From: an uncultured delta proteobacterium
GTDB taxonomy: Bacteria; Desulfobacterota; Syntrophia; Syntrophales; Smithellaceae
Reading direction: 5' to 3'
Length of the DNA: 64,000 bases
NCBI GenBank assembly: GCA_903907985.1
Contig: CAIVQG010000045.1
Coordinates: 1-64,000, forward strand
Made by a program: the position numbers and the translations under genes. Shown one piece after another: positions 7,023-43,312 of the stretch. Every line of letters starts with the position of its first letter. Position 1 is the stretch's first letter. The notes beneath the pieces were generated by a model, which was given only the letters and a program-made list of their open reading frames with translations, did not search any database and was not told the DNA's origin.

Positions 7023-7074
7023 ATAAATAATACAATTAACACTGTTGCAATCACTTTACTTGGCCAGTTTTCCA

Positions 7075-9209: not shown

Positions 9210-9243
9210 AGACGGGGGCGATAATCACGGAAAGGAGAGAAAC

Positions 9244-10779: not shown

Positions 10780-10798
10780 TTCCGGAACAAATGAGATA

Positions 10799-10836: not shown

Positions 10837-10863
10837 GTGTCCGTAGAGTCTTCTCTATGACCA

Positions 10864-11280: not shown

Positions 11281-11578
11281 GTAGCCACAAGGGCAAAATG
11301 GTTTTGAGTCGCTTGGAACAGGGTAGATTGGCCGTTAGACATATCTGCTTTAAGGGCCGAATAATGGCATCTTTATTGTAAACAGTGGGCTTTCATCTTT
11401 TCTTCGCCTTCTGTTTTGTAAACCGCTTATGCCCTCTTAAACGCCGGATCGCATGTTCCCGGTGATAACCACAGACGGCACAACATTCATCGATAATAAC
11501 AGTCTTTTCTTTACGGGTTGCTTCCTTATAACGCTTATGAAGAGCTTCAAAATATTCTCTTTTGGACTATGGACTCAT
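11281..11578 (-). pseudogene. Decayed transposase N-terminal remnant (integrase-type IS)
   Basis: From the ATG at 11578, which has GGAGG upstream, the frame reads SKREYFEALHKRYKEA, then DECCAVCGYHREHAIRRL, then LPCSKRLKTILPLWLP. These match the N-terminal helix-turn-helix region of rve-type transposases. Two in-frame stops, one after the third codon and one after KAKKR, kill it. The similarity ends at 11281-11285, exactly where the kinase remnant begins, so insertion and later deletion are likely. An 11-bp direct repeat (ATGTTACCGAA on the minus strand, 11608-11618 and 11655-11665) just upstream may belong to the element's terminus. Confidence 0.7.
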
Positions 11579-11607
11579 ATACTTAAACCTCCGTTCCCGA
11601 ATCTCTA

Positions 11608-11665
11608 TTCGGTAACATCGATTTATGAGTCAACGTACATCTTTTATCTCCTCCTTCGGTAACAT
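11608..11665. repeat. Paired 11-bp direct repeat upstream of the transposase remnant
   Basis: TTCGGTAACAT occurs at 11608-11618 and 11655-11665. It may be transposase-binding repeats of a decayed IS end. From 11666 to 11928 no gene is seen, only a possible -10 element (TATAAT, 11722-11727) for the FIST gene. Confidence 0.45.
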
Positions 11666-11928
11666 ATTATGTGAGGCAATTCTAACGGTGATAATTTATG
11701 TTCCATCAATGATAATTATGATATAATGTTCTGTAAGAGGGGTTGACACTAACGGAACCATCGGTGAAATACAGTAGCACAACCTGTATACAGGGTGGCA
11801 CCCGGAGAAAACAAACCTCGACCCTTTAGTATCAGGATACATAGATATGTTCGACTCAATAGAATCATTTACTAAGAAACCCTGCCCCGCTTGAGGAAAC
11901 TTCACTTAAAAGAAGGGATGTATTAACT

Positions 11929-13062
11929 ATGGTGAAAAATCGTCTGAGCATTAGAACGGGACGATCCCTTTCAAGGGATGAAGAAAGGGCCGTCTCTGAA
12001 TTCCATCAAGCAGTGCGGCAACCCAAAACTGAAGCTGTCATCTTTTTCTGCTCTCCCAGGTACAACCTCGATATCCTGGGCCGGGAGCTGGCAAAACAAT
12101 TCGACTGCCCCCTCATTGGTTGCACAACCGCCGGTGAAATATCAAACTTTGGTTATCAAGAGGGAGGTATCGTCGGCGCCAGCCTTGCCTCAAACGAATT
12201 AACGGTTCATCGCCACATACTATCTCCCTTGAGCCAATTTACCCTGAACAAAGCGGGGAAAATGGCTTCGAGCATCCGGGAAAACCTTTCGCATGCAAAG
12301 GGATTTGAGAGGGAAAAGATGTTTGGTTTCATTTTGATCGATGGCCTTTCCATGCTCGAAGAAGAAATCATTGCCTCGCTGTTCACCTGCTTTGAAGGCA
12401 TTACTATCATCGGGGGGTCTGCTGGTGATGACATGGCATTCCATAAAACCTACATCTATGATGACGGACAATTCAAATCCGATGCTGCCATATTTTCAGT
12501 TTTTGAGACCACGCTTCCGTTTTCAACATTCAAAACCCAGCACTTTAAGCCGACAGATACGAAAATTGTTATCACCGGCGCGAATCCTCAAAAACGAATC
12601 ATTACTGAGATCAACGGCGAAACTGCTGCCCTTGAATATGCTAAAGTTCTCGGGCTTGAACTGGATCAACTAAATCCAACGGTGTTTTCCGAAAATCCGC
12701 TTTTACTAAGAATCGGCGGCGAATGGTATGTGCGCTCAATTCAGAAGCGCAATATTGACAACAGTCTGAGTATGTTTAGTGCAATCGAAGAAGGTTTGGT
12801 ATTAACAGTAGGGAAAGGTGGAGATATCATTGCAAATTTCATGGAACAAATGCATCTCATTGAAAAAGAGATTCCGCAAAACAGTCTTTTCATCTTTTGC
12901 GATTGCATTTTGCGGAAGCTGGAATTGAACGGACTTGGTATCATCGGCGAAATGGATCGGTTGCTCGGAGACTGTAAAGCCATCGGATTCAACACCTATG
13001 GGGAACAATTCAATTCTATACACGTGAATCAAACATTGACGGGAGTAGTGATCGGTGGCTGA
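11929..13062 (+). CDS. FIST-domain sensory protein
   Basis: A soluble 377-residue protein with FIST N (about 30-215: VIFFCSPRYNLDILGREL, IGCTTAGEI, GGSAGDD) and FIST C (about 225-365, ending in GIGEMDRLLGDCKAIGFNTYGEQ). FIST proteins are proposed sensors of small molecules such as amino acids and commonly pair with kinases or cyclases. The stop overlaps the GTG start of the hybrid kinase by 8 bp, so they are translationally coupled and probably one signalling unit. The ligand is unknown. Confidence 0.9.
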   Translation: MVKNRLSIRTGRSLSRDEERAVSEFHQAVRQPKTEAVIFFCSPRYNLDILGRELAKQFDCPLIGCTTAGEISNFGYQEGGIVGASLASNELTVHRHILSPLSQFTLNKAGKMASSIRENLSHAKGFEREKMFGFILIDGLSMLEEEIIASLFTCFEGITIIGGSAGDDMAFHKTYIYDDGQFKSDAAIFSVFETTLPFSTFKTQHFKPTDTKIVITGANPQKRIITEINGETAALEYAKVLGLELDQLNPTVFSENPLLLRIGGEWYVRSIQKRNIDNSLSMFSAIEEGLVLTVGKGGDIIANFMEQMHLIEKEIPQNSLFIFCDCILRKLELNGLGIIGEMDRLLGDCKAIGFNTYGEQFNSIHVNQTLTGVVIGG

Positions 13063-15754: not shown

Positions 15755-16071
15755 TCCGTTTAGGATAATGTTGGAGTCAACATCTCAATAGTACGAATGG
15801 TATTCATTGATTTTTTAGATTTACATTTTCAAACATCAGTAGATGCTCTACGTAACAGATTTTGTTACGTAGAGGTAGCTGTAACAGCTAAACAAGGCAG
15901 GTCCTGTTTAGCTGTCGTCTGTCAAGGCAAGCACAGGCTTTAAACATTATACTATCTAATGCTTAGATGATTGCTGCGGTTATTCACTACCTAGCAAAAA
16001 CATTGCGATAAAGCCTTTTGCCGGTACAATGTCCGGATATGTTATGAAAGGTACGAGACAAGGTAACGGAA
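15755..16071. other. Intergenic region with two strong hairpins
   Basis: No gene is seen. CTCTACGTAAC (15846-15856) pairs perfectly with GTTACGTAGAG (15864-15874). CAGCTAAACA (15885-15894) pairs with TGTTTAGCTG (15905-15914). The region lies between convergent genes, so the hairpins may terminate transcripts from either side, although neither has a clear T tract. Confidence 0.6.
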
Positions 16072-16860
16072 TCAGTTTTTTTCTTTGTTTGTGGCAAGAC
16101 GGGCTTCATAGAGGCTGCGCGCCTGATCGGCGACGGCGGAGATGGAAAAATCAATGCCCTGATAGTCCGGCGTAAGTGATCCGATTAATTCTACCTTTAC
16201 TATATTAAAAGCGCGGGCATTGAAGGAGAAGGTGCCCGGACGGAAAAGTTTATTCGTGTTTTCAATGAAGATCAGTTTCAGCGGAGCGTCGCAATAGCGG
16301 GCAATGCTGAACACACCTTTATTAAAAGGCATCAGTTTTCCATTACGGCTCCTTGTCCCTTCCGGAAACACAAACAGATTGCCGCCTGCCGCCAGATGTT
16401 CTTTAATGCTTTCCAGATTGTTAATCATTGCCGGTCCCAGCATTTCGCTGGGAGCCGAAGGCACATAGCCGGAATTTTTCAGCAGCCAGCCGAAGAAGGG
16501 AACCTTAAAAAAAGTGCTTTTAACTATTGTCCGCAGTCGAGGCAAAAGTGAAATAAGCAAAATAGGATCAAGATAGGATAAGTGATTGCAGACAATCACC
16601 GATGAATGGATTTCCCGGACTTCCTCTGGGATTGCAAATTTTGTACGGGGAATAAGCCAGCGGGTCAAGGTGAAAAAGTTCTTCATATGAAGATGGTTTA
16701 ACTTTTGAAAAGCTGTTATCCGATTTCCTGCAAAAAAATATGCCGGCAGGTAAAACAAAAAGAAAAAAACAATAGAACCGAAAAGGAAATAAGACCATAA
16801 GAGCAGGGTAATGAAAAAATTAATGACGCGTTGAATGCTTCTTATTGGGGGCATTTTCAT
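16072..16860 (-). CDS. PlsC-type acyltransferase (lysophospholipid acyltransferase family)
   Basis: A 262-residue membrane-associated acyltransferase with an N-terminal hydrophobic hairpin (about 13-45). The HX4D catalytic motif is in NHLSYLD (His93-Asp98) and the acyl-acceptor motif is VFPEGTRSR near 157-166. Family members transfer an acyl chain from ACP or CoA to a glycerolipid. Aryl-polyene clusters typically carry such an enzyme for lipid attachment, and here it follows the ketosynthase by 1 bp. Attachment of the polyene to a glycerolipid is inferred. Confidence 0.88.
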   Translation of the reverse strand: MKMPPIRSIQRVINFFITLLLWSYFLFGSIVFFFLFYLPAYFFAGNRITAFQKLNHLHMKNFFTLTRWLIPRTKFAIPEEVREIHSSVIVCNHLSYLDPILLISLLPRLRTIVKSTFFKVPFFGWLLKNSGYVPSAPSEMLGPAMINNLESIKEHLAAGGNLFVFPEGTRSRNGKLMPFNKGVFSIARYCDAPLKLIFIENTNKLFRPGTFSFNARAFNIVKVELIGSLTPDYQGIDFSISAVADQARSLYEARLATNKEKN

Positions 16861-16861
16861 C

Positions 16862-18100
16862 TCAGGATAATTTTTTTAGAAGCAAGATGGTATTCACTCC
16901 GCCAAAGGCGAAATTTTGAATAGCCGCTGTTTTTACTGGGTGCTGGATAATTTTTTGCACATGTTTGATCATTGCGCACCGTTCGTCGACTTCTTCCAGA
17001 TTCAATGTCGGTGCAATGAATCCGTCCTGCATCATGTAAAGCGTAAGAATTGATTCAATGCTCCCGCAGGCAGCCATGGTATGTCCCATATAGCCTTTTA
17101 ACCCTACAACATAGGGATGATTGCCGAAAACATGATTAATGGCTTGTGCTTCAATGATATCGCCCATCTTTGTGGCCGTAGCGTGAGCGCTGACTAAATC
17201 GACATCGTCAGAATTGATTTTTGCATTTTCCAGACCGAGTTGGAGTGTATTGGTTATTCCGGTGAGATTGGGCAAAATAAGATCGCCGCCGTTGTTGTTG
17301 CAGGCAAAGCCGACAACTTCCGCCAGAATATCCGCACCGCGCCTCCTTGCAAATTCGTATTCTTCCAGCATAACGGCGCCGGCGCCTTCGGCCACGACCA
17401 GTCCGTCACGCAATTTGTCAAACGGGCGCGGGGTGTGTTGCGGGTCAGTATTGAAGGCGGTGGAACAGGCCATCAGGTTATCGAAAACAGCCACCGTTAT
17501 TGTATCGTATTCATCGGCGCCACCGCAAAGCATCGCTTCCTGCATCCCGAATTTAACCGACTCGTAACCGTAGCCGATGGACTGGCTGCTGGTTGTGCAA
17601 GCCGTACCGGAGGAAATCACCCGGCCGGTAATGCCGAACATCTTGGTAATATTGACGGCAGTTGTATGCACCATGGATTTTAGATAATCAACTGCTCCGA
17701 TTGTTTTAAAAGCGTTATTATCTGTTGCCCCGAAAAGGTTACGGTAAATATCCCGCTGGGTAACCGGGCTGCCATGGATAGAACCAAACGCAACTCCTAA
17801 TTTCCCGGAAGTTATAAATTCCTGCGGTAAACCCGACTGCTCCAGAACCTCTTTGGCCACCTGGCAGGCGTAATAAGCGCAGGGCGCCATTGTTTTGCGG
17901 TTGTGCCGTTTAAAATCATAGTTAATGGGATAGTCAACTGTTCCGTAAACTTTAGAATGGATGTGGCGACTGATCAACTCATCTTCGCGCAAAGGTTTTA
18001 TCCCGGAAATGCCCCGGAGCAGACTGTTAACTATTTGCTCCCTGCCGTGACCGATGGGGGTTATAGCCGAAGCAGCTGTTATGACCACCCTGCGTTCCAT
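16862..18100 (-). CDS. Beta-ketoacyl-ACP synthase (second active ketosynthase)
   Basis: A 412-residue FabF-like enzyme. The nucleophile is Cys168 in SSGTACTTSSQSIGYG, with histidines in SAHATATKMGD and GYMGHTMAACGS and a C-terminal NFAFGGVNT loop. 'SAHATATKMGD' is unusual compared with the FabF form NAHGTSTP, as in the divergent ketosynthases of aryl-polyene clusters. It is 3 bp downstream of the acyl carrier protein gene and 1 bp upstream of the acyltransferase gene. It is probably either the initiating condensing enzyme or a second elongating one. Confidence 0.9.
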   Translation of the reverse strand: MERRVVITAASAITPIGHGREQIVNSLLRGISGIKPLREDELISRHIHSKVYGTVDYPINYDFKRHNRKTMAPCAYYACQVAKEVLEQSGLPQEFITSGKLGVAFGSIHGSPVTQRDIYRNLFGATDNNAFKTIGAVDYLKSMVHTTAVNITKMFGITGRVISSGTACTTSSQSIGYGYESVKFGMQEAMLCGGADEYDTITVAVFDNLMACSTAFNTDPQHTPRPFDKLRDGLVVAEGAGAVMLEEYEFARRRGADILAEVVGFACNNNGGDLILPNLTGITNTLQLGLENAKINSDDVDLVSAHATATKMGDIIEAQAINHVFGNHPYVVGLKGYMGHTMAACGSIESILTLYMMQDGFIAPTLNLEEVDERCAMIKHVQKIIQHPVKTAAIQNFAFGGVNTILLLKKLS

Positions 18101-18103
18101 AAA

Positions 18104-18376
18104 TTATTTGTCCCCGGCGAGCGTTGCTTTTATCTGGGTAATCTTTTCGACATAGTCGCAAATTTGACTTATTGTGCGGATTTCCATGGCCAGCTTTTTT
18201 TCTTCCTGTGTAAGTTCAAAACCTAATAACTTTTCTATTTCCAGCAGAAGCTCGATGGCGTCAATACTATCAAACCCGTATTCTTCTCTTAAATTATCAT
18301 CCATGCCGGGATTTTCGACTTCAAATTCCCGCTGGAAAATATTTTTAATTTCTCTTTCAATTTCTTGACGTGTCAT
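18104..18376 (-). CDS. Acyl carrier protein
   Basis: A 90-residue acidic four-helix carrier protein. The phosphopantetheine attachment Ser37 lies in YGFDSIDAIELL, with 'ID' following Ser as in many polyketide carriers instead of FabD-type 'LD'. It carries the growing chain for the adjacent ketosynthase. No phosphopantetheinyl transferase is present in the window, and the second carrier protein usual for such clusters is absent, so it may lie off the left edge. Confidence 0.92.
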   Translation of the reverse strand: MTRQEIEREIKNIFQREFEVENPGMDDNLREEYGFDSIDAIELLLEIEKLLGFELTQEEKKLAMEIRTISQICDYVEKITQIKATLAGDK

Positions 18377-18593
18377 ACGTTATTCCCGTTCCGCAGATTT
18401 ATTTCGATGTATCTGACAAATATTTCAGCAATTTTCTACAATTTTTAAAAATTAGCACAAAATACCTGCTGCGTCCAGCCAAACTGCAACGGATGTGCTT
18501 TGCCTGTTCGAATGTACATTCCGGCCTCAAGGAGTTCGAAATTTAACCCGGGAAATTGCAAATCATTTTATTTGCGGCCGGTATTCTTACGCT

Positions 18594-20096
18594 TCAACCT
18601 TCACTGGGCTTGTTTCCCGCAAGTGTCATTGATTTGAATTCATGGATAAACCGTTCCTGGCCCACAATTCGCCTCACCGCATCAAAAGAACCTAAAAGGC
18701 TGCCCAATACTCCCGGGGCCACAACGTTTTGCCCTGCCAGGTAAAGCCCGGATAAGGGAACATTATTTAAAGAGGCAATTTTCAGCATCTGGCGAGACGA
18801 TCTCATTAATCCGTAGCAGGAACCTTCTGCACAATTGACATAATCCCGGACCGTCAATGGCGTAAAAACATCAATAATCTTAGCATCTTTTAATTTTCCA
18901 AAAACATCATCGGCCTGACGCAAAAGATCGTGGGCAATACTTAATTTTTTCTCTTCATAGTCTTTGCCGCGCCTGCCGGAATTTGTGTTTTCCCATTTGC
19001 TCCATTCGCTGCAGGAGGATTTGGTAATGATGGAAAGCAAATTTGCTCCGGCAGCATTTCCCCGGCGCAGCTGATAAAAAACTCCGTTATTCAATATGCC
19101 TTTTTCTCTTGCCTCAAGGCGGTAAATGTTATGGGTCATTTCCGGATGTTCCCGGCCATCAACGCTGACCTGAAGAACTATAACGCCATCCGTTTCCTGC
19201 AAGTTTGCTAAACGATCCCGGTAGGAACTCTTCAGGGATTCAACATCTAACAGCGTGAGCAACGCTTTGGGATGGACCGCAGCAACAACAGCGTCCGCCG
19301 TCAAAGAGTTTCCCGATTTCAACTGTAATCCGGTAACTTTCCCCGACTCGATGATTATTTTTTGGGCGCCTTCGTTCAGGATAAGCCGGCCACCGAGTTG
19401 CCGGAACCGCTCTACAAAAACATCAGCCATTTTAGCGCCGCTTTCTTTTAATCGCCAGCAGGAGAATAAATAACCGGCCAAAACCATGTGATGAAAAATT
19501 ACCGGACACTCCGCCAGAGGAACACCAATAAGCTGCGCCGGCATGGCCAAGACATCCTGCAAGCCGTCAGAGGCATTTAGTTTCTCTAAGTACTCACCCA
19601 TCGGGTTAAAATAATCAATATTCTGAAAGGGATCACCTTGATTGAGCAAAAACGAGGGATCGAGCATGCGTTCGGCAATTTTCCGTAAATTTTTCATGAT
19701 GACATCAATTGCCGCAGTATCGCCGGGGAATGCCGTCTGCAGATTTTTCTCATAGGCATCAATGCTGGTCGGCAAATCAAATATAAAATTATCAAAGATG
19801 TAACGGTCAATTACACCATCTTGTCCCATTCTTTCAAAAAGATCATTGACGCTGATGCCCAGAAGGCGGAATATTATGCCCAATGGTTCATCCTCGCCTA
19901 ATGCACCCACATAATGAACGCCTACGGAGCAGTCAATTCCCGAACGCCGGTAAGAACGCATCAGTCCGCCGGCCAATGGATTTTTCTCTACGATCGTAAT
20001 ATTAAAGTTCAAAAGCGATAAAATAATACCCGTACTCAGTCCGCCAATACCAGCGCCGATAATGACAATATTATTACCTTCCAAAGGTGCTTTCAT
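18594..20096 (-). CDS. FAD-dependent phytoene-desaturase/retinol-saturase-like oxidoreductase
   Basis: The 500-residue protein has an N-terminal dinucleotide-binding fold VIIGAGIGGLSTG (11-23), an acidic end to beta-2 (VEKNPLAGG) and the C-terminal FAD motif GLYLAGQNVVAPGVLGSLLGS typical of the CrtI/RetSat superfamily. These enzymes isomerise, desaturate or reduce conjugated polyenes. Its place in a polyene-type cluster fits action on the polyene chain. The stop is 217 bp from the acyl carrier protein gene, and its start overlaps the lipoprotein gene's stop by 4 bp. Reaction direction is unknown. Confidence 0.85.
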   Translation of the reverse strand: MKAPLEGNNIVIIGAGIGGLSTGIILSLLNFNITIVEKNPLAGGLMRSYRRSGIDCSVGVHYVGALGEDEPLGIIFRLLGISVNDLFERMGQDGVIDRYIFDNFIFDLPTSIDAYEKNLQTAFPGDTAAIDVIMKNLRKIAERMLDPSFLLNQGDPFQNIDYFNPMGEYLEKLNASDGLQDVLAMPAQLIGVPLAECPVIFHHMVLAGYLFSCWRLKESGAKMADVFVERFRQLGGRLILNEGAQKIIIESGKVTGLQLKSGNSLTADAVVAAVHPKALLTLLDVESLKSSYRDRLANLQETDGVIVLQVSVDGREHPEMTHNIYRLEAREKGILNNGVFYQLRRGNAAGANLLSIITKSSCSEWSKWENTNSGRRGKDYEEKKLSIAHDLLRQADDVFGKLKDAKIIDVFTPLTVRDYVNCAEGSCYGLMRSSRQMLKIASLNNVPLSGLYLAGQNVVAPGVLGSLLGSFDAVRRIVGQERFIHEFKSMTLAGNKPSEG

Positions 20097-20779
20097 TCTT
20101 CACTGCCTTTGCTTTTCTCCGTTTTCAATTCGCCTTCCAGCGGTTCGGCCTCAATCAGCGTCAGATTGAGCGAATAATTTAAGGCCTCTTTTGCCGAAAG
20201 TTCAATGCTCGAATATATATTTTCCGAAGTCATGCCCAGTTTGACCAGCCGCTGCCAGTTGCCGTATACGGAATATTTATTAATTTCTATGCCTTCAGGA
20301 AGCCTCGCAATAACGTCAATCCAAGCGCCGCTTTTTTCCTGCCAGCGGCAAATCTCTGAGCCATCGGAAAGGATTCCTTTTGTCTTGATTTCCCCTTCCG
20401 GCGCCAGAAAAATCAACTTGATATCTTCAATCATATTTTTGGTGAAATCGCCCGAATCAAAAGGTGGCAGTGCTCTGATCACTTTCAGTGCCGGCTTGGC
20501 TTCGGCTTCAAAGAGCACCATGCCTTCCGCCGTCATAATTGCACAGGACACAAACCGGGTAGACGGATCAACCAGCGTAATGCCGATTATTGCTCCCTGG
20601 ATTTCACCACCTATGCGGGCTTCGATGGCATGAACCAATCTATAGGGTTCTTTCAAAAACGGCGATGAACAAACTGCAGATTTCGGCTGGTTCTGCGGCA
20701 AAATCGGATTGATTGCCGGAAGCGTCTGGCAGGAAACAAGAAGAAAAGCTGTTAAGATCAGCAGCCGTATTCCTTTCAT
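20093..20779 (-). CDS. Predicted outer-membrane lipoprotein of the polyene cluster (DUF3261-like)
   Basis: The 228-residue precursor has a lipoprotein signal (LLILTAFLLVSC; lipobox LVSC, Cys17) and no other membrane segment. The mature part is beta-rich, with no catalytic motif recognised. Small lipoproteins of this kind sit beside LolA-like carriers in aryl-polyene clusters and probably receive the lipid-linked polyene at the outer membrane. Starts and stops overlap by 4 bp on both sides. The family assignment is tentative and the lipoprotein nature is clear. Confidence 0.72.
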   Translation of the reverse strand: MKGIRLLILTAFLLVSCQTLPAINPILPQNQPKSAVCSSPFLKEPYRLVHAIEARIGGEIQGAIIGITLVDPSTRFVSCAIMTAEGMVLFEAEAKPALKVIRALPPFDSGDFTKNMIEDIKLIFLAPEGEIKTKGILSDGSEICRWQEKSGAWIDVIARLPEGIEINKYSVYGNWQRLVKLGMTSENIYSSIELSAKEALNYSLNLTLIEAEPLEGELKTEKSKGSEE

Positions 20780-21393
20780 TCGACATCCTGAAATAGGGAA
20801 GGGTTAATAGCTTTATTGATTTCCACATCAGTAAAATCAATTATCGTTGCCGCATTTTGACCTTCAATAATTTTGACGGATTTAATTGCCATTGTTTTTC
20901 TGGCGATGGATATTTCGATTTTATCAATCATCCCGGCCATGTTTTGCCCCACTGGAACAAGTGTGATTAATGTATTTGTTCCTTCTTTCAATGATGCCTT
21001 AAAGGAAGGGTTGCGGTCAAACCTGCCGCTCATCCAGTTAACAACTTCGCTAAGCACAATGCGCATGGCCTGCACCCCGCCGGATTTATCCTCCACCATT
21101 TTGCCGCCGGACATGATAAAACGTTTGGCGTCACCATTGCCGGAAATGACGATGCTTCGTAATGGTTTTAAATATTCCCAGCGGAAGGAATTCGGCGCCG
21201 CATAAAAAAACCTGCCTTCCGCAATGAGCGGTTTGGCCAATATTTTCATCTGCTTTTTTTGCACAAAACGAGCTTGTACCGTTTTAATATTGGCGGAGTC
21301 CAAGCGTAATTGTTCAAAGCTCTCCGCGAAGGCGGAATAGGGCAGCAAAACAAACATAAGCAAAAACAATAAAATTAAATATTCTCTTTTCAT
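20776..21393 (-). CDS. LolA-like periplasmic lipid/lipoprotein carrier
   Basis: The 205-residue precursor has a clear signal peptide (hydrophobic core 6-21, cleavage after AFA). The mature part matches LolA: an N-terminal VQARFVQKKQMKILAKPL segment, then the GRFFYAAPNSFRWEYLKP strand pair. LolA carries acyl chains through the periplasm in a half-barrel. A cluster-encoded copy suggests dedicated export of the polyene lipid. It is coupled to the following lipoprotein gene by a 4-bp overlap. Confidence 0.85.
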   Translation of the reverse strand: MKREYLILLFLLMFVLLPYSAFAESFEQLRLDSANIKTVQARFVQKKQMKILAKPLIAEGRFFYAAPNSFRWEYLKPLRSIVISGNGDAKRFIMSGGKMVEDKSGGVQAMRIVLSEVVNWMSGRFDRNPSFKASLKEGTNTLITLVPVGQNMAGMIDKIEISIARKTMAIKSVKIIEGQNAATIIDFTDVEINKAINPSLFQDVE

Positions 21394-21445
21394 CGTTTCT
21401 CTATTCTCGTATTTTCAATGTTAGAAAAATTGTAGCGACCGCGCA

Positions 21446-21551
21446 AAAAGCTCCAGAGGCAAGGCGCCCCAGGCCCGAGGAGTGAGACGTACTTTTCGCG
21501 TACGTCGCAACGACGAGGGCTGCCGCGCAACGCCGCATATGGACTTTTTCC
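21446..21551. repeat. Dispersed imperfect-palindrome repeat, copy 1
   Basis: An element of about 105 bp whose ends pair (AAAAAGCTCCAGA at the left, TATGGACTTTTT at the right). It has internal complementary blocks GCAAGGCGCC/CGCGCAACGCC and CGTACTTTTCGCGTACG. It sits between the FabG and LolA-like genes. A diverged copy occurs at 43664-43788. Confidence 0.7.
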
Positions 21552-21562
21552 GGGGTCGCAAT

Positions 21563-22291
21563 TCAGCACATACCGCCGTTTATCGATATTGTCTGCCCCG
21601 TAATGTAGGAAGCATCATCCGAACATAAAAAGCGAATAACACGCGCAACTTCCTCCGGTTTTCCTACCCGCGCCATCGGTATTACCTTTTTAATTTCGGC
21701 AATCGGTGCATCCTTAATCATGTCCGTTTCAATTAAACCCGGAGCCACGACGTTTACCTTGATGCCAAAGCGCGCCACTTCCACAGCCAGCGAACGAGAC
21801 GCCCCGATCAGCCCTGCTTTTGCCGCTGAATAATTTGTTTGCCCGCGATTAGGCATTATTCCTGCCACGGAGGAAACCGAAACAATCGAGCCGCTTTTAT
21901 TTTTAATCATCTCCCGCAAAACAGGCTTAGTCATATTATAAAAACCCTTGAGCGTAGTATTGATTACACTATCCCATTCCTCTTCTCCCAACAGGAGAAA
22001 AAGACCGTCGGCATTAATTCCGGCGTTGTTAACCAGTACATGGATTCGACCATGCCGCCCGGCAATGGAGCTGATATTTTCTTTTGTCTGCGCCGTATTG
22101 ACAACGTCAAACTTAAGTGTTTCACCGGTTCCCCCTGCTTTCTGGACCAACTTAAGCGTTTCGGCAGCCGCCAGCTCGTTTTCCTTATAATTGATGACTG
22201 TAAAATAACCTGCTTTAGCCAATTCCACAGCCGTTGCCCTGCCAATCCCGCGGCTTGCCCCGGTAATTATTGCTACTTTTTTCTCACTCAT
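21563..22291 (-). CDS. 3-oxoacyl-ACP reductase (FabG-like ketoreductase)
   Basis: A 242-residue SDR with TGASRGIG (10-17), NNAG (88-91), Ser140/Ser141, Tyr154 and Lys158 in YSAAKAG, and the FabG-type C-terminus ITGQTISINGGMC. It reduces beta-ketoacyl-ACP to beta-hydroxyacyl-ACP with NADPH. With the hotdog dehydratase 86 bp upstream it completes the ketosynthase-reductase-dehydratase cycle. With no enoyl reductase nearby, the cycle would leave conjugated double bonds. Confidence 0.92.
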   Translation of the reverse strand: MSEKKVAIITGASRGIGRATAVELAKAGYFTVINYKENELAAAETLKLVQKAGGTGETLKFDVVNTAQTKENISSIAGRHGRIHVLVNNAGINADGLFLLLGEEEWDSVINTTLKGFYNMTKPVLREMIKNKSGSIVSVSSVAGIMPNRGQTNYSAAKAGLIGASRSLAVEVARFGIKVNVVAPGLIETDMIKDAPIAEIKKVIPMARVGKPEEVARVIRFLCSDDASYITGQTISINGGMC

Positions 22292-22377
22292 CCTTGTATT
22301 AAACTCCTTGCAGTAATTTGCACCATTTCACTTTCAGATAACGATAAGGCAAGAAGGAAAGGGAATTGGCATTGGTA

Positions 22378-22818
22378 TTAGTCATTTGTTGGATCTTCAT
22401 TCATCCGTAAAGCCTGCAGGACAATTTCAGCCAGGATTTCTATGCCGGCTGTAACAGTACCTTTTATTACACTGTAATTATCAAACGAATAGGAATTGCC
22501 AACACTGGCCACAAGATGCGTTCCCACGAAAATTTCGGCAACATTGAACCGGGCATCCTTGACACCAACGAGCCAGCCCTTGCCGCCGGCTTTGCCTTGC
22601 ATTTTTCTCTTATAGCCGTCAATAACCGCGCCGGTCTGGGCAACAACTTCGATTAAGACAATCGGGCTTACAGCATTGCCGTCACATGAAGGCCAGTGGG
22701 AGTTCACTACCGCTCCCGCCACAGCTGATTCCGGCGTAATCTCCAGTACCTCACTGATCATTCTTATCCGGTCACGATGCGGGATCAAGCTTTCAATATC
22801 AATGTTCAGTATGGACAT
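22378..22818 (-). CDS. Hotdog-fold beta-hydroxyacyl dehydratase (ApeP/FabZ-like)
   Basis: A short single-hotdog protein (146 residues from the ATG at 22818, which has GGGAG 5 nt upstream). IPHRDRIRMISEVLEI near the N-terminus resembles the LPHRxPMLLID opening of FabZ/ApeP, and the central helix SPIVLIEVVAQTGAVIDGY matches the FabZ hotdog helix. It would dehydrate beta-hydroxyacyl-ACP to the trans-enoyl form. It is the first gene of the right-hand leftward operon. Assignment to the dehydratase rather than another hotdog activity rests on context. Confidence 0.78.
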   Translation of the reverse strand: MSILNIDIESLIPHRDRIRMISEVLEITPESAVAGAVVNSHWPSCDGNAVSPIVLIEVVAQTGAVIDGYKRKMQGKAGGKGWLVGVKDARFNVAEIFVGTHLVASVGNSYSFDNYSVIKGTVTAGIEILAEIVLQALRMNEDPTND

Positions 22819-22942
22819 AAAAACTCCCATCTCCGTAGCAAAGCAAATTCAAAATGACGGGTAGAACAATTTTGCCCCGGGCAATGAGATATAATGCAGC
22901 AGTAGAATTGCGTCGGGATTTAGACCCTCAATATTAATATCT

Positions 22943-31732: not shown

Positions 31733-32296
31733 ATGAATATTAAAGATAATGAAGCCCACGGCAGACGCCATGAAATGGTTTACCCCTTTAAAAGACAAAC
31801 CTATGGCTATGATTGCGGCGCATCCTGCATGGAAACAGTGTTGACGCATTTCGGATATGATGTGCGGGAAGATCATATAATAAGAATTGCCGGAACTGAT
31901 AAAAACGGGACATCCATCGAAGGGTTAATGAAAGTTGCCAAAAAATTCGCCCTCAAATACAAAACACGCGAAAACATGACCATTGATGATCTGAAAAAAT
32001 GTATAAACCGCCGACGTCCCTGCATAACTCCGATTCAGGCATGGTGCAGTCGCGCAAAGAAAAATTGGGAAGATGATTGGTCCTGTGGCCATTATGTTGT
32101 CCCCATCGGTTACGATAAAAAAAATATTTATTTCGAAGACCCGGCATCGGATCACCGAACTTTTCTTTCATACGAGGAAATGGACAGAAGATGGCATGAC
32201 AAAGATGTCGCAGGCAATAAACTGATCCACTTCGGTATCATGTTTTACGGCAAACCAGAAAGATTTGATGATGATGAAATGATCCACATGGGTTGA
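31733..32296 (+). CDS. C39-like cysteine peptidase domain protein
   Basis: A 187-residue stand-alone C39-like domain. The nucleophile Cys28 is in GYDCGASCMETVL, the His is in CGHYVVPIGYD and the Asp in IYFEDPASDH. No transporter or signal segment is present, so it is cytoplasmic and not a bacteriocin exporter. Stand-alone proteins of this kind are poorly understood. AGACG before the ATG is a weak ribosome site; a later Met15 is possible. Confidence 0.82.
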   Translation: MNIKDNEAHGRRHEMVYPFKRQTYGYDCGASCMETVLTHFGYDVREDHIIRIAGTDKNGTSIEGLMKVAKKFALKYKTRENMTIDDLKKCINRRRPCITPIQAWCSRAKKNWEDDWSCGHYVVPIGYDKKNIYFEDPASDHRTFLSYEEMDRRWHDKDVAGNKLIHFGIMFYGKPERFDDDEMIHMG

Positions 32297-35877: not shown

Positions 35878-36510
35878 TCATTTGTTGCATTGTCCTATTG
35901 ATCCTTGTTTGCACCTGGTGCCGTCCGTCCACTCTGCCCCGCTCAAGATTGCCCCGGTCAGGTTTGCGCCGCCCAGGTTTGCGCCGTGAAGATCAGCCCC
36001 GCTCAAGTTCGCACCGCTCAGGTTCGCCCTGCTTAGGAACGCATCGCTCAGGCCCGCCACGCTCAGGTCTGCCCCTCCTAGATCCGCCCCTCCCAAATCA
36101 GCCTGGTTCAAGTTCGCCTGGTTCAGATTCGCTCTGCTCAGGAACGCCCCGTTCAGGTTCGCATAGTTCAGCTTCGCCTTGTGCAGGTTCGCGCCGGTCA
36201 GGTCCGCCTGACTCAGGTTCGTCTGGATCAGGTTCGTTCCGGTCAGGGTCGCACCGCTCAAGCCAGCCCTGCTCAGGTTCGCATTGCTCAGGTCACAATT
36301 GACGCATTGGTTGAACGATTTCAACTTTACCAGATCATTCTGATCAAATCCATTAGCCACACCGCCCATCAGAACCAAAGAAACAAACATCATGCCGATT
36401 GCTGCAGCGCCTCTCGCCGTCATCGTCAATTCCCTCCTTCGTGGGTATTTTGATAAGAACTTGCTTTGGGATGTACGAAAAAGGGAGTTGTGTGTCAAGA
36501 AAAGATTCAA
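35878..36510 (-). CDS. Secreted pentapeptide-repeat protein 1
   Basis: The 210-residue precursor's start may be downstream, at MTARGAAAIG near 36423, with a signal peptide ending near GVANG. The mature part has about 24 A(N/D)Lxx repeats, forming a right-handed quadrilateral helix. It is capped by CVNCDLSNANL at the N-terminus and WTDGTRCKQGSIGQC at the C-terminus. The same cysteine caps occur in the two other pentapeptide proteins in this window, so all are probably disulfide-capped periplasmic or extracellular rods. No enzymatic function is seen. Confidence 0.85.
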   Translation of the reverse strand: MNLFLTHNSLFRTSQSKFLSKYPRRRELTMTARGAAAIGMMFVSLVLMGGVANGFDQNDLVKLKSFNQCVNCDLSNANLSRAGLSGATLTGTNLIQTNLSQADLTGANLHKAKLNYANLNGAFLSRANLNQANLNQADLGGADLGGADLSVAGLSDAFLSRANLSGANLSGADLHGANLGGANLTGAILSGAEWTDGTRCKQGSIGQCNK

Positions 36511-36764: not shown

Positions 36765-37688
36765 CTACCACAGACGGGCTTCCAGACAATAAAGGAGCCA
36801 TGCCCCCGACAGATACATGAGAAATAGAAATGAAAGGACAAACAACCGGTCCAGTCCGGCAAGCTTCTGTGTACGCATGATCATAAACAGGGCGGCAGCA
36901 GCGCAAGCCAGCGTTCCTGCCACGGTTGTGCCCATTCCCACGCCGACGCGGATTGCCAGAAGGAACGCCATTCCCAGAAAACAGCCGTAAAGGATCAAGG
37001 CAAGCACCCTGGGGTGCGAAACGTGCGCGAAGATATTACCTACACCCGCCGCACTGTCACCCTCGATATCTTTCAGGTCTTTTATCTGACAGAGAAAGAA
37101 AAAGGCTGTCAGCAGATAGCCAATGATCTCCTTATCCTCCCGGGCGCTGCCAAAGCCGTTAGGCCTGGAGATACACGTCCCGGCGATAAATACGCATCCC
37201 CCGATCAGGGCGAGGGTCACAGAACCGACTGGCCAGAAGCGCCGCACTCGCATGGGCGGTGCCGAATAGAGATACGAAAGCCCCCATATTAGGAACCAGA
37301 TAGAGAAGAAGCTGCTCCCGACCGGGATTGCCAGAACGGCAGAGAGTGTCAGCAGGATCGTAGCCAACCTTCGCGCCCTGCCTTCACTGATAACGCCCTC
37401 GACCAGGGGGCGCCTGCTATTGGAGATGCGGTCGATAGCCAGATCATGAATGTCGTTGATGATCTTCGCATACGCAAACAAAAGGGTGATGGAACTGGCG
37501 GCGCACCCCAGTTTAAGCAGCTCCGCCCAACTGCCGGGCAGCATCGGCATGCCGGCCTGCCGGGCGGTATTGAAAAACCCGAACAAGAGCAGCCACAAAT
37601 AGAACAGGAGCCTGCTCGGATAGAGAAACTCCGCGATCAAGCGGCCCGCCCCTTTTGCCCGAAGAATTTGCGTCCCGTTCACCATCAT
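36765..37688 (-). CDS. UbiA-family prenyltransferase
   Basis: A 307-residue polytopic protein with about eight membrane helices. The two prenyl-diphosphate/Mg motifs of UbiA are present: NDIHDLAID at 78-86 and KDLKDIEGD at 203-211. UbiA enzymes transfer an isoprenoid chain to an acceptor within the membrane. Its start overlaps the cyclase-like lipoprotein stop by 4 bp, so the two are co-translated. Acceptor and chain length are unknown. It does not sit with quinone, heme or menaquinone genes. Confidence 0.88.
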   Translation of the reverse strand: MMVNGTQILRAKGAGRLIAEFLYPSRLLFYLWLLLFGFFNTARQAGMPMLPGSWAELLKLGCAASSITLLFAYAKIINDIHDLAIDRISNSRRPLVEGVISEGRARRLATILLTLSAVLAIPVGSSFFSIWFLIWGLSYLYSAPPMRVRRFWPVGSVTLALIGGCVFIAGTCISRPNGFGSAREDKEIIGYLLTAFFFLCQIKDLKDIEGDSAAGVGNIFAHVSHPRVLALILYGCFLGMAFLLAIRVGVGMGTTVAGTLACAAAALFMIMRTQKLAGLDRLFVLSFLFLMYLSGAWLLYCLEARLW

Positions 37689-38731
37689 CTGCCATCTCTG
37701 GTGGCGCTGGCGGCAATCTTTGCCTCGCTCGCCGACCGGAGCGCCTTTACAGCCAGTGCCGTCGTCACGACTCCGTCAGTATCGTAGGCCCGCCAGACAA
37801 CCGGCGGATGGTCGCTATAGGTATATTCCCAGACAGGCGCATGCTCATCCCGCCATGAACCGTCCGGCTCCTGCCGAGCGGCAAGCCAGGCGATCCCCCT
37901 GCGAAAGGCATCGTCGATAACGCCGCAGGCAGCCAGTGCATTGAGAGCCAGGGAGGTATCATACACCCCGCCCCAGGAACCGTCTTGGTTTTGGCTTGTT
38001 TGCAGAAAAGCGATCCCTTTCTTCCGCGCGGCCTCTCCCGTGCCTGTTTTGCCGAGAAGCACGAGACTCATATAGGTTGCGTAATAGCGCCCGGGATAAA
38101 AATAGGAGCGCCACCATCCCTGCGACGTTTGCGCACGAATAATCAGCTCTTCATTGATCAGCGGAAAGAGCGTTGTTTCCGCAAGCAAGGCGAAGATATT
38201 GGCATTGACCTCGGGGTGAATGCCCAAATTGCCCGCGACTGAAGGTTCGTAAACTGTAGCCACCGTCCCCCGTCCGTCAAAAGTGGTAAAGGCCTTGGCC
38301 TCCCTGTTATAAAAACGCAGCAAACTGTCAGCGGCGACTTCTCTGCCCAACATACGGTATGTCCGGATCACGAAGGCCGTATCGTCGGCATCGACCGGGG
38401 CATAGGGCATATAGCCCCAGACGCCTTGCCGCTCTTCCGCGTCCATTCTCGCTGTGATCTTTTGCCGCTCCCCTGGGAAGAGCAGATCGCCGATGGCCGA
38501 GGCGATGAAAAAAGAGGCAAACACATGTCCTGCCCGATGGACGGGGCAGGAAGAACCGTTGGAGGCCCGGCAGGCCAGATGATGGCGCTCTTCCCCCAAG
38601 GCCTTACGGAGGTATGACACGCCCTGACCCACGGCAGTGTCGATGCGCCGGTCTCCGGCCGCCCCTGCGGGCATATGGGCGCAACCGGACAACAGACAGA
38701 GCGCCGCCACAGTAGCCATGACTTTTTTCAT
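37685..38731 (-). CDS. Lipoprotein with class II terpene-cyclase-like alpha-barrel (DxDDTA motif)
   Basis: The 348-residue precursor has a lipoprotein signal (LLSGC, Cys17). The mature protein is a single alpha/alpha barrel with QW-like repeats QNQDGSWGG and QEPDGSW, plus YDTSLALNALAA and YDTDGVVTTALAV helices. At 114-119 it carries Asp-Ala-Asp-Asp-Thr-Ala, the acid motif of squalene-hopene-type class II cyclases, just after GVWGYMPYAP. Known cyclases are larger (600+ residues, two or three domains) and not lipoproteins. Coupling to the UbiA gene suggests a shared isoprenoid substrate. Alternatively the motif is structural in a prenyltransferase-like barrel with another role. Confidence 0.75.
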   Translation of the reverse strand: MKKVMATVAALCLLSGCAHMPAGAAGDRRIDTAVGQGVSYLRKALGEERHHLACRASNGSSCPVHRAGHVFASFFIASAIGDLLFPGERQKITARMDAEERQGVWGYMPYAPVDADDTAFVIRTYRMLGREVAADSLLRFYNREAKAFTTFDGRGTVATVYEPSVAGNLGIHPEVNANIFALLAETTLFPLINEELIIRAQTSQGWWRSYFYPGRYYATYMSLVLLGKTGTGEAARKKGIAFLQTSQNQDGSWGGVYDTSLALNALAACGVIDDAFRRGIAWLAARQEPDGSWRDEHAPVWEYTYSDHPPVVWRAYDTDGVVTTALAVKALRSASEAKIAASATRDGR

Positions 38732-38771
38732 TTAAATTGCCTTCTCAAACATGCAACCGCAAGGACTGCCC

Positions 38772-39089
38772 TTAGTATCTATTCCTTTTGACGCAGCGCC
38801 ATCCCGAATCCGGATCATAGTCCGACTCTACGGTGCCACGGATAATGCTGTTGTAATACTTCGAAGACATATAATCCTGCGGCGTACTGATATCATTCTT
38901 GATATCCCCCTTAGAGCCGCCGATAAAATTGGCGCCACAGCTGTTACCCTTTTTATCCAGCCAAGAAATCCCGCCCCCATCGACCACACGGCTTCCCTCG
39001 CATCTGCAGGCGAAGGCATGGCCGGAAGCCGCAAAACCGGCGGACAGGAAGCAAGCTACCACCAGACACATCATCACTTTTTTCATCAT
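38772..39089 (-). CDS. Small secreted cysteine protein A (paralogue of the next)
   Basis: The 105-residue precursor has a classical signal peptide (VMMCLVVACFLSAGFAA; cleavage near GHA-FA). The mature 79 residues begin FACRCEGSRVVDGGG and end DPDSGWRCVKRNRY, with four cysteines (CxC plus two). AAGGAG lies 8 nt before the ATG. Its neighbour at 39143-39472 is a clear paralogue. No known family is recognised. It lies in the operon between the membrane protein and the cyclase-like gene. Confidence 0.82.
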   Translation of the reverse strand: MMKKVMMCLVVACFLSAGFAASGHAFACRCEGSRVVDGGGISWLDKKGNSCGANFIGGSKGDIKNDISTPQDYMSSKYYNSIIRGTVESDYDPDSGWRCVKRNRY

Positions 39090-39142
39090 GTTCGTTTCTC
39101 CTTTTTCGTTATCCCAAAGCTAGTACCGGAGCAACCACTCCC

Positions 39143-39472
39143 TTAGTATGTATTCCTTTTGACACAGCGCCATCCCGAATCCGGATCGTAAGCCGAATCT
39201 ACAGTGCCATTGATAATGCCGTTATAATACTGCGAAGGCATGAAATTGTTCTGATCCTTGACATTATTAATGATTTTCCCCTTCTCGCCACCGCTGAAGC
39301 CATTGCCGCAATCGATTTTTTTATCCAGCCAATCGGTCCCCGTCCCACTAATCCCATCATGCACAACTCTTCCCTCGCATCTGCAGGCGAAGGCATGGCT
39401 GGAAGCTGCAAAACCAGCGGACAGGAAGCAGGCCAGCATAAGGCACATCATCACTTTTTTCACCGTTTTCAT
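39143..39472 (-). CDS. Small secreted cysteine protein B (tandem paralogue)
   Basis: A 109-residue precursor from the ATG at 39472, which has AAGGAG directly upstream. It has a signal peptide, then FACRCEGRVVHDG near the mature N-terminus, WLDKKIDCGNGFSGGEKG in the middle and DPDSGWRCVKRNTY at the end. The pattern is the same as in protein A: CxC, one central Cys and one Cys near the C-terminus, probably two disulfides. It starts 14 bp after the membrane protein stop. The ends of the pair are the most conserved parts. Confidence 0.82.
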   Translation of the reverse strand: MKTVKKVMMCLMLACFLSAGFAASSHAFACRCEGRVVHDGISGTGTDWLDKKIDCGNGFSGGEKGKIINNVKDQNNFMPSQYYNGIINGTVDSAYDPDSGWRCVKRNTY

Positions 39473-39485
39473 TTCTCCTTTTCGT

Positions 39486-40772
39486 TTATTGTATAGATCG
39501 TAACTGCCTCTGCCGCACGCCGATAGAGACGGCTGCCACGGCAAGAAACAGCAACAAAAACATAGTTCCGTGCCCCTCGAAAGGCCGCCAGGGACCATAG
39601 GGGAGAATCAGGGACGCCCCCGCCAGAAGAGCGGCCACGCTAATCAGCGGTTCACCCAAATGGCGGATGACGGGAATCCGCCGCAGTTCAAAGGGCGAGT
39701 GCCCGTACAGAAAGATCACCGAGGTGATCAACAGCCAGAACGGGATAAAACCTGCCGCCGATGCTCCCCCGAAGACAGCCGACAGCGTCAGAAGTACCGG
39801 CCCTGCCTCTTTGGCACGATTACCGGTGCGCAGCTTTTCGGCAAGATATAGCAGGTACAGTGAAAGAACAGCCGCGCCTAGTTTAAAAAGATCGCCGGGA
39901 TTGATGATCCGTTCTGTGAGTTCCAACCAGCCGGCCGTGTAGAAAAAGCCGCAGACCGCCAGGGCAAGAGAGATAAATCCCGTAGCCGGTATCAAGAGGC
40001 CGGATGGTTGTAAACCGCCCTTTTCCCGAATGAGAAATGTGCCGGTCAGAACAGCAATTCCGGCAACCGGGATGAGATAGAGAAAAAACAAGGCCTGCTC
40101 AAAAAGGATGCCCGTGGCTGCCAGTGATTCGATCGTATCGGGCCCCCAGCCGCACAGGGTGAAGATTGCCGGGAGGTAGCCGAAGATGAAAATTACGATA
40201 TAGATCGAGAGGGCAAGGGTGAAGGAGCGCAGGATTCCCTTTTTGAAAACGAAGAGACCGAAAAAAAGGCATCCTGTCACGACCAGAAACACCTCCACGC
40301 GCACCCCAGTTGTCACCATGGCAATGGAGGCGAAGGGATCGAATAGGTGCATGAATTCGTGCCCAAAGGCGTCGAAGTTCTCGCCGTATTTGACGGCGCC
40401 GGCAAAGCCTTTGCCGAGAATGGTATCGAGAAGCGGCACGATCAGGATGAGCGGAGAAAACAGCAGGGTGAACAAAACGCTTTCCCGGTAACGCAACCCC
40501 AGGAAGAAAGCAATCATGAGCGCAATGGCGGCAAACATGGCAAGCCAGGAAAGGTACGGATGAAGGTAATAGATCACGACCCGGTAGAAATCATTCCACA
40601 GAAAAAGCGAGTGCTTCCGGGAAAATACCTCGAGAAACGTCCTAAACGCGATGATGCCGGTGAAACCGAGCAAAATCCTGCCCGGCGTCAAAGGCTGATT
40701 CAGAAATTTATTTATTGCAGTCATCATGGCTAAAAAACCGATCCTGTTTATAAATGAACATTTCCAGCGCAC
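39486..40772 (-). CDS. Polytopic membrane protein of unknown function
   Basis: Up to 428 residues with about 11-12 hydrophobic helices. The start is uncertain: GTG at 40772, or ATG at 40727/40724 (MMTAINKF). A loop between predicted helices contains FDAFGHEFMHLFDPF. HEFMH (138-142) fits the zinc-protease pattern HExxH, although this may be chance. No transporter family is recognised. It is the first gene of the operon with small proteins B and A, the cyclase-like lipoprotein and UbiA, so it may handle export or membrane processing of their product. Confidence 0.8.
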   Translation of the reverse strand: MRWKCSFINRIGFLAMMTAINKFLNQPLTPGRILLGFTGIIAFRTFLEVFSRKHSLFLWNDFYRVVIYYLHPYLSWLAMFAAIALMIAFFLGLRYRESVLFTLLFSPLILIVPLLDTILGKGFAGAVKYGENFDAFGHEFMHLFDPFASIAMVTTGVRVEVFLVVTGCLFFGLFVFKKGILRSFTLALSIYIVIFIFGYLPAIFTLCGWGPDTIESLAATGILFEQALFFLYLIPVAGIAVLTGTFLIREKGGLQPSGLLIPATGFISLALAVCGFFYTAGWLELTERIINPGDLFKLGAAVLSLYLLYLAEKLRTGNRAKEAGPVLLTLSAVFGGASAAGFIPFWLLITSVIFLYGHSPFELRRIPVIRHLGEPLISVAALLAGASLILPYGPWRPFEGHGTMFLLLFLAVAAVSIGVRQRQLRSIQ

Positions 40773-41202: not shown

Positions 41203-41276
41203 AACTCATGAATGAAATACCATTCCGATCATCTGCAGAAACTTACTTTTCAAGACCTGAGCCCGTGCTCTTCCCT
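41203..41276. repeat. REP-like cassette repeat, copy 1
   Basis: Shares AAACTCATNNATNAAATAC-like sequence and CAAGACCTGAGCCCGTGCTC with copies at 41821-41911 and 42494-42578. It runs into the stop codon of the small secreted gene at 41275. On the minus strand it resembles GGGnTCAGGTCTTGAA-type REP elements. Confidence 0.65.
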
Positions 41277-41643
41277 AATTGCACCGCGAGGCCGCGTAGC
41301 CCTTCGTCAGAACTCTCCCGTTTCTGACGACCCTCCATTGCTGGCAATCCGTGCCGCTTAAGGTTGTAGACGATTTCTTGCAGATTGCCTCGTTGTCATT
41401 GTTCGAACTCTTCCAGAAATCATAATGAGTGGTCACGCCGTATTTGATTTCCGAATACGCTCCGTGGACCCCCAGCCCGGTCCACTGGGCCATCTGGGCG
41501 GAGGTCAGCCGATAGGTGTGGTCGCTGCCGCCGCAGAAGTGTTTGGACAGCGTGTTTCCCAGGGTATCGGCCGCCGCCGGGCCGGCAAAAGCGAACAAAA
41601 AGAACAGGGCGGTCAGGGTAACGGTTTGCAGTGTGGTCTTCAT
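41275..41643 (-). CDS. Small secreted protein, unrecognised
   Basis: The 122-residue precursor has a signal peptide (TALFFLFAFAGPAAA, cleavage before DTLG). The mature part has four cysteines (HFCGG, AICKK, TDCQQW and C-terminal SRCN) and WRVVRNGRVL. A good GGAGGAGATAAAA precedes the ATG. It has no recognised family. It lies between pentapeptide gene 2 and the membrane-protein operon and carries a cassette repeat at its 3' end, so it may be part of the same surface-protein locus. Confidence 0.7.
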   Translation of the reverse strand: MKTTLQTVTLTALFFLFAFAGPAAADTLGNTLSKHFCGGSDHTYRLTSAQMAQWTGLGVHGAYSEIKYGVTTHYDFWKSSNNDNEAICKKSSTTLSGTDCQQWRVVRNGRVLTKGYAASRCN

Positions 41644-41975: not shown

Positions 41976-42410
41976 TTATTTACGGCATCTGCCGACTGAC
42001 CTATCTTTGCATTTCGAACCATCCGTCCATGTCGCATTACTCAGGTTGGCACCTTTCAGGACGGCCATTGTCAGATTGGCACCGTGCAGGTCTGCACCGC
42101 TCAGGTTGGCATGGATCAGGTTTGTACTGGTCAGGTCTGCACCGTTCAGCCTGGCATTGCTCAGATTGGCATCACTCAGGTCGGCATTACTCAGGTTGAC
42201 ACCGCTCAGGTTGGCATTAATCAGATTGGTACCGCTCAGCATGGTATCACTCAGGTTGGCTTCACTCAGGTCACAATCAGGACATACGCGCATTGTTTTT
42301 AATTTTAACAAATCTGCCTGGTCATAGCCCGACGCGCCACTCGCGAATAACAAAGCCAGCACAAACGGAACAACAGCAAGCCGGAAAAAGATTTTTCGGT
42401 TTTTCTTCAT
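41976..42410 (-). CDS. Secreted pentapeptide-repeat protein 2
   Basis: The 144-residue precursor has a signal peptide ([21 protein letters not shown]). The mature part has about 14 A(N/D)LSx repeats between the caps [11 protein letters not shown] and [17 protein letters not shown]. It is shorter than protein 1 and has the same ends, so repeat number has changed while the caps stayed. A function as a structural rod or surface layer is inferred only. AGGAGAGG lies just before the ATG. Confidence 0.87.
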
Positions 42411-42826: not shown

Positions 42827-43312
42827 TTATTTGTTACATTGCCCGAGAGCGCCATTCTGACATTTAGACCCGTCTGTCCAGGTCGCCCCGTTCAGGAGCG
42901 CCCCGGTCAGGTTTGCGCCGCTCAGGTTTGCGCCCTGAAGGTTTACCTGAAACAGGTTTGCATAACTCAGATCCGCATTGATCAGCTTTGCCCCACTCAT
43001 ATTTGATACCTGCAGCTGTGTCGCTACCAAGTTCGCCCCGGACAAGTTTGCTCCGCTGAGGTTCACCTTATTAAGCCATGCCCCTTTCAGGCTTGCCCCG
43101 TTCAGGCTTGCCCCACTCAAATTTGCGCCGTTCAGGTACACCCCGTATAGGTCTGCCCCACCCAGGTTTGCTTCGCTCAGGTCACAATCGGGACATTGTT
43201 TTGTTGTCGTTAGTTTCTGTACATCAGCTTGACTAAACGCATAGAGACTTGCTGCGAATGAAACAGCGACCAGAATAAGTGTAACCATGATTGATAAGAA
43301 TAGTTTCTTCAT
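42827..43312 (-). CDS. Secreted pentapeptide-repeat protein 3
   Basis: The 161-residue precursor has a signal peptide (LFLSIMVTLILVAVSFAASLYA). About 15-16 repeats follow the cap [11 protein letters not shown] and end at [17 protein letters not shown]. The ends are almost the same as in proteins 1 and 2, which supports recent duplication. GGAGGACGAGC lies upstream of the ATG. It is the rightmost gene of the surface-protein locus. Confidence 0.87.
   Translation of the reverse strand: MKKLFLSIMVTLILVAVSFAASLYAFSQADVQKLTTTKQCPDCDLSEANLGGADLYGVYLNGANLSGASLNGASLKGAWLNKVNLSGANLSGANLVATQLQVSNMSGAKLINADLSYANLFQVNLQGANLSGANLTGALLNGATWTDGSKCQNGALGQCNK

Follow-up and report, generated by a model that had tools for sequence, protein, structure and literature searches.

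A candidate envelope prenylation and cyclization operon pairing UbiA with an MstE-like lipoprotein in an uncultured deltaproteobacterium

We analyzed a stretch of 64,000 nucleotides (the window) from contig CAIVQG010000045.1 of an uncultured deltaproteobacterium of the Smithellaceae (assembly GCA_903907985.1), in which a run of leftward genes encodes a UbiA-superfamily prenyltransferase, a terpene cyclase-like lipoprotein, two small secreted cysteine (Cys) proteins, and a membrane protein. A first-pass annotation of this DNA had described five closely spaced leftward genes with UbiA overlapping the lipoprotein gene. The open reading frame (ORF) list of the window bore this out: all five lie in one tight run at 36765 to 40727, with intergenic gaps of 13, 53, and 40 bp and a 4-bp overlap between the lipoprotein and UbiA genes. 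They constitute a single operon, as follows.

39486..40727, minus strand: membrane protein of 413 amino acids (aa), with an N-terminal transmembrane (TM) domain and a decayed UbiA half (pseudo-UbiA)
39143..39472, minus strand: small secreted Cys protein B, with a signal peptide and the pattern CxC...C...SGWxC...Y
38772..39089, minus strand: small secreted Cys protein A, a tandem paralogue of B
37685..38731, minus strand: monodomain class II terpene cyclase-like lipoprotein, predicted to be exported, with lipobox LLSGC, DADDTA, and VNAN
36765..37688, minus strand: UbiA-superfamily intramembrane prenyltransferase (PF01040), with both Asp motifs intact

Shine-Dalgarno-like sequences (GAGAAGG and AAAGGAG) precede the lipoprotein gene and both small-protein genes. 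The membrane protein most likely starts at the ATG at 40727, a GTG at 40772 being optional, and the start of small protein B was corrected to 39472, as that of the 151-aa ORF is too early. The GC content is 53 to 59% over 37 to 40 kb versus about 45% on both flanks, and the cyclase and the TM domain were not found in the three other genomes of the genus; both observations are compatible with horizontal acquisition, without proving it.

The proposal of a gene system hinged on a conserved neighborhood, and this was found in 3 of 155 genomes of the class. Full-length cyclase homologues occurred only in the genome of the window (G000) and in G130 and G132, and close UbiA relatives were confined to the same three genomes. 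The cyclase and UbiA genes are adjacent in all three, always with small secreted Cys proteins beside them. The order at L008, a locus of the deltaproteobacterial G130 metagenome-assembled genome (MAG), is cyclase, small protein, TM-UbiA, small protein, while that at L041 (G132) is UbiA (lacking its 5' part at the contig end), three small proteins, cyclase. Because gene order is shuffled while the set persists, these data favor a functional link over mere inheritance as a block, within the limits of small numbers. Moreover, the ratio of nonsynonymous to synonymous substitution rates (dN/dS) between the window and L008 was 0.20 for the toroid (cyclase) pair and 0.25 for the UbiA pair, and it was 0.51 for the two small genes; purifying selection is acting on the cassette genes. 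With such low values and recurrence of the set in three genomes, the association exceeds chance. No relatives were found in viral contigs or phages, and the TM-UbiA fusion was not found in plasmids either.

The lipoprotein had been read as a lipid-anchored single barrel with the class II terpene cyclase motif, and this reading stood, with the anchor as a prediction. The protein (348 aa) scored above the Pfam SQHop_cyclase_C cutoff (30.2 versus 26.1 bits) and carries DADDTA at residues 114 to 119 and VNAN at residues 175 to 178. The best PDB matches of a three-sequence profile (A4) included the single-domain class II cyclases 8paj (E = 5.7e-18), 8pak (4.6e-14), 6ij1 (4e-11), and MstE 6sbb (5e-5), and also squalene-hopene cyclase 2sqc (4e-16). 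In an AlphaFold model of moderate quality (predicted local distance difference test [pLDDT], 65; predicted template-modeling score [pTM], 0.73; weak at residues 105 to 114), one alpha/alpha barrel of about 330 to 350 aa matches MstE along its length, with DxDD at the catalytic position. The best Foldseek match of this model was MstE (E = 5e-8), with TM-scores of 0.57 to 0.63 to MstE, 8pak, and 6ij1. VIA Z scores were 24.1 for 8paj and 23.7 for MstE 6sbc (282 residues), with matches spanning 280 to 290 residues; glycosidase-type (GH105-type) toroids ranked lower, at about 17 to 19. The window DADD aligns with DSDD of the S. platensis ent-copalyl diphosphate synthase 5bp8 and with DADS of 8paj and 8pak. 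Sequence, fold, and motif together identify the lipoprotein as a class II terpene cyclase of the single-domain MstE type, presumably an active one.

Membership in the squalene-hopene cyclase (SHC) family was rejected (47.8 versus 322.7 bits for TIGR01787 and 28.4 versus 431.1 for TIGR01507, and 348 aa is not a two-domain protein), as was a protein prenyltransferase beta subunit (PF00432; 12.5 against a cutoff of 26.5 bits). Reading the barrel as a protein prenyltransferase, TED, or glycosidase was ruled out by Pfam scores and the Z ranking. DxDD and VNxN are kept in seven cyclases of low identity, with the variants VNCN in a Patescibacteria protein and INAN in Novosphingobium, and are retained between proteins about 25 to 30% identical, including that of L041. 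When toroids were fetched regardless of motif, DxDD[TSA] was found in the cyclase-like ones, and most of the others were devoid of DxDD. The N-termini in the window (MKK...LLSGC) and L008 (MKN...LLAGC) show a lipobox by inspection, and the distant L041 cyclase has a signal-like N-terminus with no clear lipobox; the cyclase is accordingly predicted from its sequence to be exported and lipid anchored. The Patescibacteria MAG just mentioned encodes, at L011:7884-9842, a protein of 652 aa in which a DDFLDDE segment comes after a cyclase-like barrel with DLDDT; it could be a bifunctional class II/class I terpene synthase.

The UbiA protein scored 81 bits against the PF01040 cutoff of 34.2, and its Asp motifs, NDIHDLAID (NDxHDxxxD) and KDLKDIEGD, are intact and kept in L008 and L041. 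Its closest solved structure is digeranylgeranylglyceryl phosphate synthase 6m31 (E = 6.6e-15). At L008, one 533-aa protein joins a TM domain of the window type to an intact UbiA, and this UbiA half is 59% identical to the window UbiA. The polytopic membrane protein of the first-pass annotation is indeed present in the operon, but it is not a separate fifth kind of component: its C-terminal half aligns with the window UbiA (28% identity; E = 4e-10), and the whole protein aligns with the L008 fusion (33% identity over 421 columns; E = 5e-51). In the alignment, the NDxxDxxxD and KDxKDxEGD regions are both missing from this half, and the N-terminal part is a TM domain of about 235 aa with about six hydrophobic segments. 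The membrane protein is thus best described, from its alignments, as a new TM domain joined to a decayed, Asp-less UbiA. The TM domain matched no Pfam family or PDB sequence and was absent beyond G000 and G130 when 395 genomes of the phylum, plus those of the class, were searched. A YIP1 reading was rejected (no Pfam match; hhalign probability, 0.9%), as was an internal UbiA duplicate.

The MAG of L008 holds a second TM domain, L039, which is 64% identical to that of L008 and leads into the UbiA half of L040, where NDxxDxxxD is lacking. Compared with contig L039, which adjoins it, L040 (G130:C187) appears chimeric over its first 250 bases (L040:1-250), as at an assembly join; after them, the L040 UbiA segment and the end of L039 share an exact overlap of 32 bases. 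A separate UbiA gene in L040 was therefore dropped, and we infer from the overlap that L039 and L040 are one decayed TM-UbiA fusion gene. Both the window genome and the L008 MAG then carry one intact and one decayed UbiA. Since the TM domains of L008 and L039 are nearer each other than to that of the window, UbiA decay probably occurred twice.

Cyclase relatives also accompany prenyltransferases elsewhere. The best homologue outside the class lies in G186 (L094; E = 8e-22); it carries DMDDS and follows a LynF/TruF/PatF-like prenyltransferase (TIGR04445; E = 1e-22, below the cutoff). The surrounding cluster (G186:C129:7000-19000) is of the type that makes ribosomally synthesized and posttranslationally modified peptides (RiPPs), with two radical SAM/SPASM enzymes, PqqD domains, and an ABC transporter, which suggests that it makes a cyclized prenyl peptide. 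Other genomes of the G186 class yielded no such cyclase. On a plasmid of Nostoc sp. C052, WP_179070293.1 (L101:6027-9683), annotated merely as a TPR protein, is a 1,218-aa PhyH-UbiA-cyclase-TPR fusion whose cyclase has the motif DLDDT and is 43% identical to L094. In Novosphingobium RL4, 0.9 kb separates a cyclase gene (DVDDT) from a UbiA gene, and genes for a sulfotransferase and an ABC exporter are also present. Because the UbiA domains of Nostoc and Novosphingobium show only weak similarity to the window UbiA, recruitment of the UbiA-cyclase pair seems to have happened on more than one occasion.

Small proteins A and B are tandem copies, 66 to 67% identical. Together with five tandem copies at L039 they form family A, whose common features are a signal peptide, a CxC pattern with a third Cys, and [ST]GWxC; the SGWxC motif (S or T first) is invariant, and many members end in Tyr. 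The other loci carry unrelated small secreted Cys proteins, two at L008 (9101-9478 and 11244-11690) and three genes at L041. A small-protein model was weak (pLDDT, 64; pTM, 0.52) and gave no fold match. Members of family A also occur without the cassette (G069, G130:C74, and G000:C63), so the family is not confined to it. In the window's own genome, L055:6673-7716 (G000:C63) is a second site of small secreted Cys proteins, one of which resembles the protein beside the decayed UbiA in L040. A signal-and-Cys scan of the 64-kb window, a rough scan that overlooks some known cases in L008 and L041, placed 5 of 5 such ORFs at 38.8 to 43.3 kb, inside or upstream of the operon. Two further features belong to this island.

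41275..41643, minus strand: further small secreted Cys protein of unrelated sequence, upstream of the operon, possibly associated with it as judged from clustering
41976..42410, minus strand: secreted pentapeptide-repeat protein in the same island of small secreted Cys proteins, weakly associated

Three secreted pentapeptide-repeat proteins flank the cassette (35878-36510, 41976-42410, and 42827-43312). Their C-terminal Cys pairs match, and the latter two have an 11-residue stretch in common. About 4.5 kb from the cassette, 31733-32296 encodes a C39-like cysteine peptidase as judged by eye (YGYDCGASCMETVL). Farther away, at 4437-22830, genes of ketosynthase, acyl-CoA ligase, reductase, and dehydratase-like type resemble an aryl-polyene or related fatty acid-type cluster.

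On balance, we lean toward reading the operon as a prenylation-then-cyclization module of the merosterol (UbiA plus MstE) type that has been relocated to the cell envelope. The inner-membrane UbiA, given its family and motifs, would attach the chain of a polyprenyl diphosphate to an acceptor, and the chain would then reach the outer side of the inner membrane. There, the lipid-anchored cyclase would protonate the terminal alkene of the chain via the middle Asp of DxDD and fold it into rings. The TM/pseudo-UbiA protein, a diverged sister of the TM-UbiA fusion, may form a complex with UbiA or carry the product, once prenylated, to the other side of the membrane. The small secreted Cys proteins may be functional partners (acceptors, carriers, or chaperones of the product), because they are repeatedly adjacent to the cassette. 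Several points weigh against such a module. Just three genomes carry the cassette, with the G132 UbiA 5' truncated at a contig end, and the cyclase model is only moderate. Known class II terpene cyclases are cytosolic; the named relatives of this one all appear to be cytosolic, and we know of no precedent for an exported cyclase. UbiA Asp motifs face the cytoplasm, and the product must therefore cross the membrane. Furthermore, the operon has no gene for an acceptor or for prenyl diphosphate biosynthesis. If the reading is true, an exported cyclase with UbiA would mean terpene cyclization in the envelope and hence a new envelope lipid or a new protein lipidation.

Among the alternatives, it is possible, though we think it unlikely, that the small secreted Cys proteins are themselves the substrates, receiving a prenyl group on Trp, Tyr, or Cys that the exported cyclase folds outside the inner membrane, to give terpenoid-modified secreted proteins. 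Their constant adjacency, tandem duplication (up to the five copies at L039), and divergence would fit this, as would the invariant [ST]GWxC and the many C-terminal Tyr residues; the cyclase and the small proteins would both be periplasmic, and a cyclase relative stands beside a peptide prenyltransferase in the G186 RiPP cluster. There is also a precedent in NctPC, in which a C20 (geranylgeranyl) group is put on a peptide Trp and cyclized by an MstE-like domain (PMC13290415). However, UbiA enzymes work from the cytoplasmic side on small acceptors embedded in the membrane, whereas proteins exported by Sec fold outside. Moreover, the small proteins fall into several unrelated families, with family A occurring without the cassette as well, and the operon encodes no PqqD domain or RiPP recognition element, leader peptidase, radical SAM enzyme, or ABC exporter, its candidate precursors carrying Sec signals.

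We likewise regard as improbable that the small proteins are unrelated neighbors, with the core an ordinary meroterpenoid or quinone-like lipid pathway in an island that gathers secreted proteins. Such proteins do occur elsewhere in these genomes, and the Nostoc and Novosphingobium UbiA-cyclase loci have glycosyltransferases, a sulfotransferase, and ABC exporters rather than small proteins. Nonetheless, the small genes sit inside the operon, at gaps of 13 to 53 bp and between the membrane-protein and cyclase genes, and small proteins accompany the cassette at four loci despite the shuffled order. Quite unlikely is a catalytically dead barrel that, once exported, binds or chaperones an isoprenoid lipid: the Asp-less UbiA sister shows that enzymes decay in this operon, and exported toroids generally are often not cyclases, but the barrel has kept DxDD and VNxN even at the identity of the L041 protein and evolves at a dN/dS of 0.20. 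A toxin-immunity or defense cassette, in which the small Cys proteins would act as secreted antagonists from which the membrane proteins shield the producer, is very improbable, for although tandem divergent small secreted Cys proteins do lie beside polytopic membrane proteins, immunity needs neither a cyclase with a conserved acid motif nor an intact UbiA, and no toxin family was matched in family scans.

An envelope prenylation-cyclization module has counterparts among known systems. The first-pass annotation held that no known pathway contains this gene set; half of that claim fails, because UbiA plus an MstE-type cyclase is the merosterol step. Cyanobacterial merosterols are made by a UbiA-like prenyltransferase and an SHC-like cyclase (PMC5618424), and the Scytonema UbiA-like enzyme and MstE form the same pair of a UbiA-superfamily enzyme and a single-domain DxDD-type cyclase. 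Here, in contrast, the cyclase is predicted to be exported and lipid anchored, a TM/pseudo-UbiA sister and secreted Cys proteins are added, and aromatic-acid and P450 genes are absent. NctPC shares the succession of prenylation and MstE-like cyclization, but its acceptor is a peptide and its prenyltransferase is a fused ABBA enzyme, whereas the operon has a UbiA and exported proteins, for which peptide modification is conjectural. In WP_179070293.1 of Nostoc, a UbiA and a cyclase of the same family are parts of a single chain; this protein differs in its UbiA subclade, in having no signal peptide, and in its neighbors (glycosyltransferases, a sulfotransferase, and an ABC exporter). The G186 cluster likewise places a cyclase relative beside a LynF/TruF-like prenyltransferase, but there the cyclase is cytosolic, the prenyltransferase is of the ABBA type, and radical SAM enzymes and PqqD domains are present. 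SHCs share the alpha/alpha barrel repeats and DxDDTA, but they have two domains of about 630 aa in all, whereas the window protein has one of about 330 aa and falls far below the family cutoffs. The recurrent pairing of a prenyltransferase with a monodomain cyclase, in a UbiA operon, a UbiA fusion, and a RiPP cluster, offers a genome-mining handle for cyclized-prenyl products. Altogether, the other half of the claim holds: neither the merosterol nor the NctPC system includes an exported cyclase, a TM/pseudo-UbiA partner, or secreted proteins, and these are the new parts.

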